64,000 nt of DNA, taken from the NCBI RefSeq assembly GCF_031679605.1, contig NZ_CP117522.1, forward strand, positions 1,674,001 through 1,738,000. Reading direction: 5' to 3'. The notes below the pieces were generated by a model. That model did not search any database. It saw only the letters and a list, made by a program, of their open reading frames with translations, and was not told the origin of the DNA. Positions within the stretch are counted from its first letter, which is position 1, and each line of letters opens with the position of its first letter. This DNA is from Streptomyces luomodiensis (GTDB lineage Bacteria > Actinomycetota > Actinomycetes > Streptomycetales > Streptomycetaceae). Below are positions 2,584 to 7,868 of this stretch, piece by piece. Made by a program: the position numbers and the translations under genes.

Positions 2584-4077
2584 ATGGCCTCGGCATCAAC
2601 CGCTCCCCCACCTCCCGGCAACCTCCGGCGCATCGTCGCCGCGAGCCTCATCGGCACCACCATCGAGTGGTACGACTTCTTCCTCTACGGGTCGGCGGCC
2701 GCACTCGTCTTCAACCAGCTCTTCTTCCCCGACTCCGATCCGCTCGTCGGCACCCTGCTGTCGTTCCTGACCTACGCGGTCGGCTTCGCCGCCCGGCCGA
2801 TCGGCGCCCTGGTCTTCGGCCACTACGGCGACCGGCTCGGCCGTAAGAAGCTGCTGATCCTGAGCCTGCTGATGATGGGCGGCGCCACCTGCGCCATCGG
2901 GCTGCTGCCCACCCACGCCACGGTCGGCTCGGCGGCGCCCGTCCTGCTCACCGCGCTGCGCCTGATCCAGGGCTTCGCGCTCGGCGGCGAATGGGGCGGG
3001 GCGGTGCTGCTGGTGTCGGAGCACGGGGACGCGCGGCGGCGCGGGTTCTGGGCGTCCTGGCCGCAGACCGGCGCCCCCGCCGGACAGTTGCTGGCCACCG
3101 GGGTGCTCTCCGCGCTGACCGCGCTGCTCTCCGACGGCGCCTTCGCGTCATGGGGGTGGCGGGTGCCGTTCCTGCTCTCGGGCGTGCTGGTACTGGTCGG
3201 CTTGTGGATTCGGCTCTCTGTCGATGAATCGCCCGTGTTCAAGGCGGCGCTGGCCCAGGCCGAGGCCCGTAAGGCCGCCACGGGCCGGGACGGTGCCGCC
3301 GCCGAGAAGCTGCCGCTGGTGGCGGTCCTGCGCCACCACTGGCGGGATGTGCTGGTCGCCATGGGCGCGCGGATGGCGGAGAACATCAGCTACTACGTCA
3401 TCACCGCCTTCGTCCTCGTCTACGCGACCTCCGACCACGTGGGCCTGGACAAGCAGACCGCGCTGAACGCCGTACTGATCGCCTCGACCGTGCACTTCGC
3501 GGTCATTCCCGCATGGGGCGCGCTGTCGGACCGGATCGGACGCCGCCCGGTGTATCTGCTGGGCGCGGCGGGTGTGGGCGCGTGGGCCTTCCCCTTCTTC
3601 CTCCTCATCGACACCCAGGACTTCCCGGCCCTGGTGCTCGCCGTGACGGTCGGGCTGGTCTTCCACGGGGCGATGTACGCGCCCCAGGCGGCCTTCTTCT
3701 CCGAGATGTTCGCGACCCGGATGCGGTATTCGGGGGCGTCGATCGGGGCGCAGTTCTCATCGGTCGCGGCCGGCGCGCCCGCCCCGCTGATCGCCACCGC
3801 GCTCCTGGCCGACTACGACAGCGCCACGCCGATCGCCCTCTATGTGATCGCGGCGGCCCTGCTCACCCTGGTGGCCGTGGGCGCCGCCAAGGAGACCCGG
3901 GACCGCGATCTGGCCGCCGTCGAACCGGCCACGGCGCCCTCCCCGCGGCCGGCGGGGAGGACGGAGAGCGAGACGGGAACGGGACCGGGAACGGGACCGG
4001 GAACGAGGACAGGGACGGGGACGGAGACAGAGACAGAGACGACGGAGCGCCCGGCCCGTTCGTCCTCGGCTCAGTAG
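2584..4077 (+). CDS. MFS transporter, metabolite:H+ symporter (MHS) family
   Basis: A 497-residue, twelve-helix permease. The hallmark opening IEWYDFFLYGSAAALVF in the first helix, the GHYGDRLGRKK loop between helices 2 and 3, and GGEWGGA in helix 4 place it in the metabolite:proton symporter family, which imports organic acids such as shikimate, citrate or ketoglutarate types. The ATG at 2584 follows GAGGAAG and begins right before the family fold; the longer frame from 2536 is unlikely. The last 45 residues are a hydrophilic Thr/Gly/Glu repeat tail built from six-base units, probably dispensable. It is convergent with the GAF regulator and overlaps its end by seven bases. Confidence 0.88.
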   Translation: MASASTAPPPPGNLRRIVAASLIGTTIEWYDFFLYGSAAALVFNQLFFPDSDPLVGTLLSFLTYAVGFAARPIGALVFGHYGDRLGRKKLLILSLLMMGGATCAIGLLPTHATVGSAAPVLLTALRLIQGFALGGEWGGAVLLVSEHGDARRRGFWASWPQTGAPAGQLLATGVLSALTALLSDGAFASWGWRVPFLLSGVLVLVGLWIRLSVDESPVFKAALAQAEARKAATGRDGAAAEKLPLVAVLRHHWRDVLVAMGARMAENISYYVITAFVLVYATSDHVGLDKQTALNAVLIASTVHFAVIPAWGALSDRIGRRPVYLLGAAGVGAWAFPFFLLIDTQDFPALVLAVTVGLVFHGAMYAPQAAFFSEMFATRMRYSGASIGAQFSSVAAGAPAPLIATALLADYDSATPIALYVIAAALLTLVAVGAAKETRDRDLAAVEPATAPSPRPAGRTESETGTGPGTGPGTRTGTGTETETETTERPARSSSAQ

Positions 4078-6614
4078 CCCAGGGCCGAGGCCAGGCGGTG
4101 CAGCCGCAGGGCGAGCTGGATCTCCAGGGAGCGGGCGGGCGACTGCCAGTCGGGGCCGAGCAGCCGCCCGACCCGCTCCAGCCGCTGCGCCACCGTGTTG
4201 ACGTGCACGTGGAGCGCGTCCTTCGTCCGGGCCGGGCTCATCCCGCCGGCGAAGTACGCGTCGAGCGTGCGGATCAACTCGGTGCCGCGCCGCTCGTCGT
4301 AGTCGAGGACCGGACCCAGGGTGCGGGTCACGAAGTCCTGGACGCCGGTGCCGTCCGGGGCGCCGTCGCGGGTACCGGCCAGCAGCAGGCCGAGGAAGCC
4401 GAAGTCCTCGGCGGCGGCGCCCTGTCCGGCCCGGCCCAGCGCCCGCAGGGCGGCCAGACAGCGCCGCGCCTCGGCGTAGCCGGCCGCCACCTCCCCCGGC
4501 CGCCCGGCGGGCGCGGCCACCGGTGCGGAGGCGCCGACGGTGACCGGGGCGTGCACGGCGGTGCCCAGCTGCCGGGCGGTGCGGCGGGCGAGGGCGTCGG
4601 CGGTGTCGCCCTCGGCCAGCGGCAGCAGCAGCACGGTGCCGCCGTCACGGGTGGCGGCCAGACCGTGCCGGGTGGCCGCCAGATGGGAAGCGGCGGACCA
4701 CAACCTCCGGCGCCCGGCGGCATCCTCAGCATGCGCACCGCCGGCCCCGCTTCCGGCCGCACCGCCGGACCCGCTTCTCGATGCGCCGCCAGGCGCGCCA
4801 CCAGGCGTCCCGCCAGACCCGCCTACAGGCGCGCCACAAGGTCCGCTTCTCGGTGCGTCGTTGGATCCGCTCCGGGGCATGCCCCCAGACCCGCCTCCGG
4901 GCGCGCCACCAGACCCACCTCCGGGTCTGCCTGCGGACCCGCTTCTGTGCGTGCCACCAGGCCCGTTTCTCGGTGCGTCGTTGGATCCGCTCCGGGGCAT
5001 GCCCCCAGACCCGCCTCCGGGCGCGCCACCAGGTCCGCTTCTCGGTGCGTCGCCGAATCCACTCCGGGGCGCGCCCCCAGACCCGGCGGGTGCGCCCCCG
5101 GACCCGCCTCCGGGCGCACCACCAGACCCACCCCCGGGCGCGCTTCCGGGCGCGCCACCAGGCCCACTTCTCGATGCGCCACCGAATCCACTCCGGGGCA
5201 TGCCCCCGGACCGACCTCCGGCTGTGCCACCAGGCCCACCTCCGGGTGCGCCGCCGGGTCCGCATCGGAATGCGCCATCGAACCCGCCCGTGGGTGTCCC
5301 ACCGGGCCCGCCCGCAGATGACCCACCGGGCCCGGCGGCGGGTGTGCCGGTGTCCGGGGCTTCGATGCTCGCGGCGAGCACCACGTGGGGCGCGTCCAGG
5401 TCCGCCCGGAGCCGTGCCGCGCGTTCGCGCAACAGCCGGGGTTCGCGGTCGGGGGCGTCGAGGAGGTCGTCCAGGAGCTCACCGCGCACCCGCTGTTCGG
5501 CCTCGCCCGCCGAGCGGCGGGCGAGTTGCAGCAGCGAGGTGACCATCGCTGCCCGCTCCAGGGTGCGCTGGTCCACGGGGTCCAGCCGGGGGTGGCCGCG
5601 CAAGATGAGCGCGCCGAGCAGTTCGCCGCCCGCCGAAACGGCGGCGACCCAGTCCTGCTCGCCGTCGCGCACCGCGCGGCCGTCGGCCCGGGACCGGTCG
5701 ACGGCCGCCGCGGGCGCCTCGTCGGCCTCGACGAACTCCACGGAACCGCTGAGCACTTCGGCCACGGCGTCGGCCACGTCATGCACCCCGCCACCGCGCA
5801 GCACCAGCTCGGTGAGCCGGTCGTGGACGTCGGAGGCGCGCTCGATGACCCCGCTGCGGTCCCGGATGATCTCGTTGGCGGCCTCCAGCTCGGTGAGCGC
5901 CGTACGGGTCTCGGCGAGCAGATGGGCGGTGTCGATCGCCACGGCGGCGTGGGCGGCGAACGAGCCGAGCAGCGCTATCTGTTCGCGCTCGAACACCCGG
6001 GCCCGCCGGTCGGCCGCGAACAGCACGCCGATGACGCCGCTGCCGAGCAGCAGCGGCACCCCGAGGATGGCCACGAGTCCCTCGTCCCTGACACCCGCGT
6101 CGATGGTGCCGGTGTGCTGGAACCGCGGATCGTGGAAGTAGCTTTCGGTCACATAGGGACGGGCGGTCTGGGCGACCAGGCCGCCGAGCCCCTCCCCCAT
6201 GCCGAGCCGCAACTGCTGGAAGCGGGCCGAGACCGAACCGTCGGTGACCCTCATATAGGTGTCACCGGCCGTCGGGTCGTTGAGCGTCAGATAGGCGACC
6301 TCGGTGCCCAGCAGGGAGCGGGCGCGCTGCACGATCGCCTGGAGCACCGCGTCCAGATCGCGCAGCCCCGCCAGGTCGTGGGCGGTTTCGAAGAGCGCGG
6401 ACAGCTCGGCCTCACGACGCCGCCGTCCCTCCAGCTCACCGCGCACCCGCAGGGCGAGCAGCTTGGCGCGCTCCAGGGCCGCCAGCCGGTCGGCCGGGGC
6501 CTTGTCCGCGCGGGCGCGCAGCACCGGGCGCTCGTACGCCTCGGCGGGCGCGCCGCGTACGAGCAGTTCCAGGTAGGGGGTCTCCGGCTGGTCGTCGGGC
6601 ATGGGCACAGACAT
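4071..6614 (-). CDS. GAF domain PucR/CdaR-type transcriptional regulator with Gly-rich insert
   Basis: From the ATG at 6614 the product is 847 residues. A GAF domain (about 75-240) is followed by a helical stalk, then a Gly/Pro/Ser-rich stretch (about 420-625), and ends in a PucR-type C-terminal HTH with the signature DALHVHVNTVAQRLERVGRL. Relatives regulate small-molecule catabolism, and the neighbouring 3-hydroxybutyrate dehydrogenase and transporter are likely targets. The frame is open upstream to 7022 through the 30-bp repeats, but that extension uses codons unlike the rest of the gene (TTG, CGA, GGT, CCA), so 6614 or 6602 is preferred. The Gly-rich insert makes the protein roughly 200 residues longer than usual for the family. 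Confidence 0.82.
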   Translation of the reverse strand: MSVPMPDDQPETPYLELLVRGAPAEAYERPVLRARADKAPADRLAALERAKLLALRVRGELEGRRRREAELSALFETAHDLAGLRDLDAVLQAIVQRARSLLGTEVAYLTLNDPTAGDTYMRVTDGSVSARFQQLRLGMGEGLGGLVAQTARPYVTESYFHDPRFQHTGTIDAGVRDEGLVAILGVPLLLGSGVIGVLFAADRRARVFEREQIALLGSFAAHAAVAIDTAHLLAETRTALTELEAANEIIRDRSGVIERASDVHDRLTELVLRGGGVHDVADAVAEVLSGSVEFVEADEAPAAAVDRSRADGRAVRDGEQDWVAAVSAGGELLGALILRGHPRLDPVDQRTLERAAMVTSLLQLARRSAGEAEQRVRGELLDDLLDAPDREPRLLRERAARLRADLDAPHVVLAASIEAPDTGTPAAGPGGSSAGGPGGTPTGGFDGAFRCGPGGAPGGGPGGTAGGRSGGMPRSGFGGASRSGPGGAPGSAPGGGSGGAPGGGSGGAPAGSGGAPRSGFGDAPRSGPGGAPGGGSGGMPRSGSNDAPRNGPGGTHRSGSAGRPGGGSGGAPGGGSGGMPRSGSNDAPRSGPCGAPVGGSGGTPGGAPGGASRSGSGGAAGSGAGGAHAEDAAGRRRLWSAASHLAATRHGLAATRDGGTVLLLPLAEGDTADALARRTARQLGTAVHAPVTVGASAPVAAPAGRPGEVAAGYAEARRCLAALRALGRAGQGAAAEDFGFLGLLLAGTRDGAPDGTGVQDFVTRTLGPVLDYDERRGTELIRTLDAYFAGGMSPARTKDALHVHVNTVAQRLERVGRLLGPDWQSPARSLEIQLALRLHRLASALGY
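4740..5350. repeat. Imperfect repeats encoding the Gly-rich insert, with an exact 66-bp duplication
   Basis: This part of the regulator gene is built of imperfect repeats encoding GG(A/M)P, GSGG and RSG units. The 66 bases at 4847-4912 recur exactly at 4967-5032, a period of 120 bases. The reading frame remains open through all copies, so expansion and contraction in multiples of three would change only linker length. Confidence 0.8.
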
Positions 6615-6698
6615 ACTCCCGACGGGCGCGGCGGCACCAGGCGCGGGGCGGCCCGGTGACGTCACCTCGACGGGGCGGCCGGGCAGGACGCGGTCCGG

Positions 6699-6990
6699 TG
6701 GCTGAGCCAATGGGCCACCATCGGACGGTGGCTGAGCCAATCGGCCCTCATGGCTGCGTGGCTGAGGCTGAGGCTGAGCCAACCGGCTTTCGTGGCCGGG
6801 TGGCTGAGCCAATCGACCTTCCCCACCACCTGGCTGAGCCAATCGGCCCTCTCCACCCCGTGGCTCAGCCAATCGCCCCTCTCCACCGCGTGGCTGAGCC
6901 AATCGGCCTTCCCCACCACCTGGCTGAGCCAATCGGCCTTCCCCACCCCATGTCTGAGCCAATCGGCCTTCATCAACTGGTGGCCGGTCC
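6699..6990. repeat. Array of nine 30-bp repeats, each holding the palindrome TGGCTGAGCCA
   Basis: Nine copies of a 30-bp unit lie between the 3-hydroxybutyrate dehydrogenase stop and the regulator start. The core TGGCTGAGCCA starts at 6699, 6729, 6801, 6831, 6861, 6891, 6921 and 6951, plus a variant at 6771 in a unit expanded by 12 bases. TGGCT and AGCCA are exact inverted arms around one base; the 6951 copy has one mismatch. All frames are open on the minus strand: one encodes a decapeptide with core ADWLS and Streptomyces-like codon use (6662-6973), another GRLAQP with atypical codons. Either an operator array or a repeat peptide is possible. Apart from this the 392-base gap holds no evident gene. 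Confidence 0.85.
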
Positions 6991-7006
6991 TGTGGCTGTG
7001 GGCCGC

Positions 7007-7813
7007 TCAGTGGGCGGTCCATCCGCCGTCCATGCTGAGCGAGGCGCCGGTGACGAAGGACGCGTGCGGACCGCAGAGGTACGCGACGGCCTCGGCGACC
7101 TCCTCGGGTTCGACCAGCCGCTTGACCGCCGCGTCGGCCAGCAGCACCTCGGAGACGACCCGTTCCGGCGAGATCCCGTGGGCCTCGGCCTGGTCGGCGA
7201 TCTGCCGCTCGACGAGCGGGGTGCGCACATAGCCGGGATTGACGCAGTTGGAGGTCACCCCGTGCGCCGCGCCCTCCAGGGCGGCGACCTTGGAGAGCCC
7301 CTCCAGACCGTGTTTGGCGGCCACATAGGCCGACTTGTACGGCGAGGCGCGCAGCCCGTGCACCGACGAAACGTTCACGATCCGGCCCCAGCCACGCGCG
7401 TACATATGGGGCAGCGCGCCACGCACCAGCCGGAACGGGGCCTCCAGCATCACGGTGAGCACGCGGGAGAAGACCTCGGGCGGGAAGTCCTCGATGGGCC
7501 GGACGAGTTGCAGCCCGGCGTTGTTGACCAGGATGTCGGTGCCGGCGGCGGCCCGTTCGGCGGCGTCGAGGTCGGTGAGGTCGAGGGGGTGGGCCTCGAC
7601 CGGACCGGGCAGCCCGGAGGCCGCGGCGACCAGGTCGGCGAGGCCCGCGGCGTCCAGATCGACGGCCCGCACCCGCGCCCCGGCGGTGGCCAGCCGCAGC
7701 GCGCAGGCCCGGCCGATGCCCCCCGCGGCGCCCGTGACGAGTGCGGTACGGCCGGACAGATCGAGGCCGTCGGACGGCCGGGGGGCCGGCCCTGGTGTGG
7801 TGGACGCGCTCAT
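7007..7813 (-). CDS. 3-hydroxybutyrate dehydrogenase-type short-chain dehydrogenase
   Basis: A 268-residue classical SDR. The cofactor motif TGAAGGIGRACA (about residues 26-37), the NNAG motif, the active-site serine in VNVSSVHG and the YVAAK catalytic pair are all intact, and the ending MDGGWTAH matches D-3-hydroxybutyrate dehydrogenases, which interconvert 3-hydroxybutyrate and acetoacetate with NAD. A GTG nine bases earlier is an alternative start. TAATGT lies seven bases before the ATG, which could be a -10 box giving a leaderless transcript (inference). It is followed by the 30-bp array and the GAF regulator on the same strand. Confidence 0.85.
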   Translation of the reverse strand: MSASTTPGPAPRPSDGLDLSGRTALVTGAAGGIGRACALRLATAGARVRAVDLDAAGLADLVAAASGLPGPVEAHPLDLTDLDAAERAAAGTDILVNNAGLQLVRPIEDFPPEVFSRVLTVMLEAPFRLVRGALPHMYARGWGRIVNVSSVHGLRASPYKSAYVAAKHGLEGLSKVAALEGAAHGVTSNCVNPGYVRTPLVERQIADQAEAHGISPERVVSEVLLADAAVKRLVEPEEVAEAVAYLCGPHASFVTGASLSMDGGWTAH

Positions 7814-7868
7814 GAGGGGCACATTAGGCAGCCGTCGCGCCCGGACCGATGTGCCGACGCCACATACT

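Follow-up and report, generated by a model that had tools for sequence, protein, structure and literature searches.

A tandem array of nine ~30-bp units (6699..6974, minus strand) in Streptomyces luomodiensis is probably an operator array: it is best read as a series of tandem operators of a GntR/FCD protein (LldR/PdhR-like) that lie in frame inside the gene of a PucR-type regulator. Judging from sequence comparisons, we give this reading a probability of about 0.6. The array was found in a window of 64,000 nt (the whole stretch of DNA that was analysed) from a genome of 10.04 Mb on one contig (G000). The new element is the combination, i.e. an operator minisatellite within coding sequence, the parts of which are already known; the array was not found in the literature searched, which covers few subscription journals.

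Architecture of the array

On the minus strand the nine units read (GGC)(NNA) TTG GCT SAG CCA, corresponding to ...LA[QE]P... at the peptide level, and each is built around a 5-1-5 palindrome. A sequence-only reading of the window had described a tandem 30-bp array, and this array is real, with core starts confirmed at all nine positions. Six cores (6699..6711, 6729..6741, 6801..6813, 6831..6843, 6891..6903 and 6921..6933, all on the minus strand) are exact copies of ATTGGCTCAGCCA and a further one (6861..6873, minus strand) is an exact copy of ATTGGCTGAGCCA; the core at 6771..6783 (minus strand), located in a unit of 42 bp, has two mismatches (GTTGGCTCAGCCT), and the core at 6951..6963 (minus strand) has one (ATTGGCTCAGACA). 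All five arm pairs are intact in seven of the nine units. The last unit, at 6951, is imperfect as had been noted, but the unit at 6771, which had been counted among the exact palindromes, also lacks one arm pair. Searching the window for ATTGGCTNAGCCA with up to two mismatches we found 16 matches, compared to a mean of 1.72 (sd 1.36, max 7) in 100 dinucleotide shuffles. Genome-wide, and with up to one mismatch, ATTGGCTNAGCCA has 21 matches in G000 (8 of them in the array) versus 24 for the reversed pattern, and TTGGCNNNGCCAA occurs at one place versus 9+9 for its reversed pattern. A dispersed REP-like palindrome was considered and rejected, as only one exact place is found outside the array in G000.

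Among 14 distinct arrays, the distance from one unit to the next is a multiple of 3 in all 59 cases, being 30 bp in 51 and 24, 27, 39 or 42 bp in the remaining 8. The proposal that the cores lie on nearly the same helix face is weakened by these values: with 10.5 bp per turn, 30 bp amount to 2.86 turns, and the four other steps are in use among relatives as well. A helically phased bending array was rejected too, the spacings of 24, 27, 30, 39 and 42 bp being out of step with the helix.

Distribution and origin

In a DNA-level search of 392 genomes of the genus, the array region was strongly matched in nine (E ≤1.3e-35), while the matches in the other 142 matching genomes were short and weak. 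Adjacent pairs of TTGGCTNAGCCA are present in 7 of the 392 genomes, every one at the dehydrogenase-regulator locus. The nine genomes and nine named loci provide 18 array loci; after removal of four duplicates (L076, L077, L079 and L084, with spacers equal to those of L047, L049, L051 and L053) 14 distinct arrays with 73 units remain. Only a single clade has the array, namely the S. violaceusniger group, with S. violaceusniger, S. sabulosicollis, S. samsunensis, S. rugosispiralis and S. endocoffeicus among the array species. On a tree of 48 regulator rows a single change accounts for it (support 100/95; recovered in 99% of 200 bootstrap trees), the nearest array-free rows being L085, L087 and L098. 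A distant-mode search for plasmid relatives of the array returned no match in a collection that may lack near relatives.

Copy number varies from 4 to 9 units per array across the clade and also within one species, where G000 has 9 units and G384 has 5; G384 and Streptomyces sp. S465 (L076) have the same spacer.

In-frame position of the array in the regulator gene

The host genes, both on the minus strand, are a 3-hydroxybutyrate dehydrogenase gene (7007..7822; TIGR01963 above cut-off) and the PucR-type regulator gene, the latter in a long form of 983 aa (4071..7022; GAF, GGDEF_2 and HTH_30; ATG at 7022) or in a short form of 843 aa starting at an internal ATG at 6602 (P0008). The ATG at 7022 overlaps the dehydrogenase stop by 16 nt, and from there the regulator frame is open across the whole array, with the decapeptide repeats EGRLAQPxxx. 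This frame, the regulator's own, had been overlooked in the sequence-only reading. Its description of an array filling the gap between both genes holds for the short start at 6602, but not for the frame that runs from ATG 7022 through the array, and its statement that all minus frames are open is wrong, one of them having stops within the array.

For the array group and its near sisters, spacer length modulo 3 is the same and the regulator frame is free of stops in 22 of 22 distinct spacers (26 loci listed); stops in another frame occur in 16 of the 22. With 59 of 59 steps divisible by 3 and, in every one of these spacers, an open frame continuous with the gene, the array has the properties of a coding tandem repeat. 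An open frame by itself is weak evidence here, as the regulator frame is open in 89 of 105 distinct loci (118 were given; those without dehydrogenase match, with a distance >800 or duplicated were dropped). In 43 of the 105 loci the last 30 nt of the dehydrogenase gene contain an in-frame ATG, which is located at the 16-nt overlap in 40 cases; an internal ATG is lacking in 9 of the latter (ATG starts only). Among the matches listed, at least five sister proteins start with MDGPL or MDSPL and have no internal ATG (P0006, P0039, P0096, P0110 and P0116). Loss of the internal ATG in some relatives speaks indirectly for translation of the array. On the other hand, all 14 arrays retain this ATG, the annotated regulators of array species begin there, and array units were found in none of the database proteins among the best 120 of 185 matches. 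In-frame embedding in pucR is well supported by these comparisons, and it is very likely that the array is translated in frame in at least part of the transcripts. The regulator may possibly use both starts, 7022 and the internal ATG. We infer translation from 7022, and the annotations of this regulator in the clade may have missed ~79 to 140 codons at the start.

The regulator N-terminus seems prone to repeat growth, as judged by other, unrelated tandem repeats at this end in L021 and L028 (PDAARPVP-like and PSDSPPSDFPP-like, respectively). A second in-frame repeat region, rich in Gly, is found inside the regulator gene (4734-5345, minus strand; units of 12, 24, 72 and 120 bp), making the short form 843 aa long compared to ~620-720 aa in most homologs among the matches listed. 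Just before the internal ATG, GTATGNCTGTGNCCATG (6600-6625, minus strand) resembles GTATCCCTGTGACCATG at the gene start in other Streptomyces, and is possibly a promoter -10 element close to a leaderless start. Searching the sense strand of the dehydrogenase-regulator spacers we also found TT[AG]TCCACA in 15 of 105 distinct loci (L017, L021, L023-L027, L029, L030, L032-L035, L117 and L129) and in 0 of 14 arrays; this corresponds to a DnaA-box form, and the regulator might be under DnaA control in other Streptomyces.

The core is constrained at the DNA level

The core is constrained at the DNA level, beyond the needs of the peptide. TTG makes up 0.8% of Leu codons and GCT 0.7% of Ala codons in the flanking dehydrogenase and regulator genes of the same species, and neither is ever the commonest codon of a flanking column. 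Where present, TTG was kept in 12 of 94 flank comparisons versus 98.5% between array units of different species, GCT in 0 of 105 versus 85.6%, and CCA in 116 of 196 versus 92.9%; some columns of L078 in this analysis are misaligned owing to a small indel in the dehydrogenase gene. The codon preceding the core varies in its amino acid (R, P, G, S, Q or K), yet its third base is A in 72 of 73 units, and this A is kept in 98.7% of comparisons versus 59.0% in the flanks. Under constraint on the peptide only, the third positions of L-A-Q-P and of the preceding codon would be free to drift; as they are kept, the core is held at the DNA level. The core of the last, orthologous unit is the same throughout the 14 arrays, with varied neighbours.

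Variation within the core is concentrated in its middle (T63/C9/G1 and C51/G22, the third middle base being A72/G1), which suits a motif of the form TTGGC-N3-GCCA. Nine units with GCC-GAG keep the peptide LAEP and lose one of the five arm pairs; this is a mild case of the decay of the palindrome under a conserved peptide that had been named beforehand as an argument against operators, and TGGC-N3-GCCA survives in these units. ATTGGC-N3-GCCA is intact in 61 of 73 units, whereas it was intact in 0 units in 2000 synonymous resamplings of the regulator frame; synonymous resampling of the ADWLS frame, another minus frame, yielded on average 1.7 and at most 7 intact motifs of 73. Array units share ancestry, so that the unit counts given here are non-independent trials.

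The same palindrome is found at the gntR-matC promoter

Outside the array, G000 has a single exact ATTGGCTNAGCCA, which forms a perfect palindrome, ATTGGCTAAGCCAAT (1219439-1219453), located 461 kb from the array between a gene for a GntR+FCD regulator (gntR; G000:C1:1218630-1219313) and a divergent MatC_N/CitMHS transporter gene. The GntR protein contains PF00392 and PF07729 above cut-offs and resembles LldR and PdhR, below the cut-offs of their profiles. In all nine array genomes exact ATTGGCTNAGCCA is confined to the array and the gntR-matC site, save two extra places in G381; in G174 the gntR-matC match is exact on one strand only. No exact match was found in four other genomes, and the reversed control gave none in all 13. 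The gntR gene itself was found in the nine array genomes and in G009, but not in three others searched. The extra sites of G381, of the ATTGGCT-N-AGCCAAT type, are found at L215:4230 and L216:4592 with further half-sites nearby; the neighbouring genes are unrelated, a dehydrogenase-like gene in one case and, downstream of the site, a LacI-like gene in the other (names read from translations). Sites with one mismatch in G000, read by open frames only, pointed to no clear further regulon member.

We extended the comparison by phylogenetic footprinting upstream of gntR, using 34 loci (30 of the 44 gntR-positive genomes, namely those with a locus, plus 4 more) of 77-100% identity, 9 from the clade and 25 from others. 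TGG-N5-CCA is found in 34 of 34 loci and TGGCTNAGCCA in 31 of 34, and a matC neighbour was recognised at 33 of 34. Outside the clade many gntR loci have two sites, e.g. AGTGGCTGAGCCAAT and ATTGGCTCAGCCACT, close to ATTGGCTSAGCCAC of the array units; the outer AT of one operator arm is missing in array units. We consider it highly probable from these matches that the array core corresponds to the gntR-matC operator. As the core is identical to the conserved gntR-matC palindrome and the motif follows gntR, the likely binder is that GntR protein.

FadR-subfamily GntR proteins bind TKGT/ACMA boxes with GT and AC usually 3 nt apart, and carboxylic-acid effectors are usual for FCD-type regulators (PMC4494728). 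In Escherichia coli the LldR box is AAnTGGTCnGACCAnTT, and one printed lldP site, AAgTGGcactgCCAaTT, is a TGGC-N3-GCCA site (PMC10272880). In common with LldR/FCD-type operators, a TGG-N5-CCA palindrome lies here centrally in the promoter region shared by a regulator and a divergent transporter gene, conserved between regulator and target, and the regulator has both GntR and FCD domains. The strict TKGT/ACMA consensus is not found: the site is TGGC-N3-GCCA, with C/G in place of the usual T/A, and in contrast to typical FCD-type operators TGGC/GCCA replace the usual GT/AC boxes and 4-9 tandem copies lie in the coding sequence of another gene. The array core would nevertheless work like an operator.

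Possible function and alternative explanations

We infer binding by GntR, and repression rather than activation. GntR dimers occupying the array would stop transcripts that come from the dehydrogenase gene before they reach pucR, or would repress a promoter close to the internal ATG, or both; an organic-acid effector might then release GntR, tying pucR expression to dicarboxylate status. Coding would fix every step at 3n, and operator function would fix the 13-bp core. The earlier proposal of a multi-operator or DNA-bending array would thus stand as regards operators but not bending or phasing, and the likely binder is the GntR/FCD protein encoded 461 kb away instead of the adjacent GAF/PucR regulator. 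That the array consists of operators of the adjacent PucR-type regulator, for autoregulation, as first proposed and as its position at the regulator's own gene would suggest, is very improbable: this regulator is widespread, yet even a site with two mismatches is found in only 2 of 32 non-array spacers, and the motif follows gntR. Still harder to credit is a translated repeat peptide in the ADWLS frame. This frame has native-like third positions, and the variable central C/G base is synonymous in it; however, two of the 14 arrays (L078 and L080) contain a stop in it, units of 7 of 14 have W-P-S changes, the frame is closed upstream by the dehydrogenase stop, and resampling never approached the observed number of motifs.

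A purely coding repeat, i.e. an N-terminal minisatellite with cores kept alike by recent duplication or homogenisation and a likeness to the gntR promoter due to chance, would account for the 3n steps, the lack of stops and the unrelated repeats found elsewhere at this N-terminus. Bacterial coding minisatellites indeed share with the array units of 3n bp and a copy number variable between relatives, but the array core is conserved beyond what the peptide requires. Spacers diverge and cores do not, even in the last unit with its varied neighbours; rare codons are retained in the array and decay in the flanking genes; and the motif is exactly common to one conserved promoter. We therefore regard this explanation as improbable. 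Rather unlikely, too, is a sponge, in which the array would act mainly by titrating the same GntR protein, so that gntR-matC control would change in threshold or in noise and the location in pucR would be incidental. Synthetic DNA sponges (decoy arrays) likewise consist of tandem operators, 10-30 bp apart, which can titrate a regulator and work in E. coli (PMC7686491); the array differs in being natural, chromosomal, in frame inside a gene and known here from its sequence. With 3-7 intact sites per array versus one or two at the gntR-matC promoter, and 9 versus 5 copies in two genomes of the same species, titration is conceivable, but one such array on the chromosome may have little titrating power, and a sponge could sit anywhere, whereas all 14 distinct arrays are found in frame at the same place in pucR. 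The constant position favours action in cis and the copy number favours titration. We give action in cis on pucR an even chance, and consider repression or a roadblock more likely than a sponge.

Tentatively, and with somewhat less than even odds, the array may be viewed as a natural expandable operator minisatellite, in which an operator was amplified within the gene of another regulator and slippage in steps of 3n would retune the network and leave the protein unbroken. The copy numbers of 9 and 5 in one species make effects of operator number (roadblock versus sponge) directly testable. If the operator reading is true, the array would represent natural tandem transcription factor sites selected inside coding DNA, where the same bases both encode protein and act as a control switch. 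A repressor of dicarboxylate transport would then be linked to the 3-hydroxybutyrate dehydrogenase/regulator pair.
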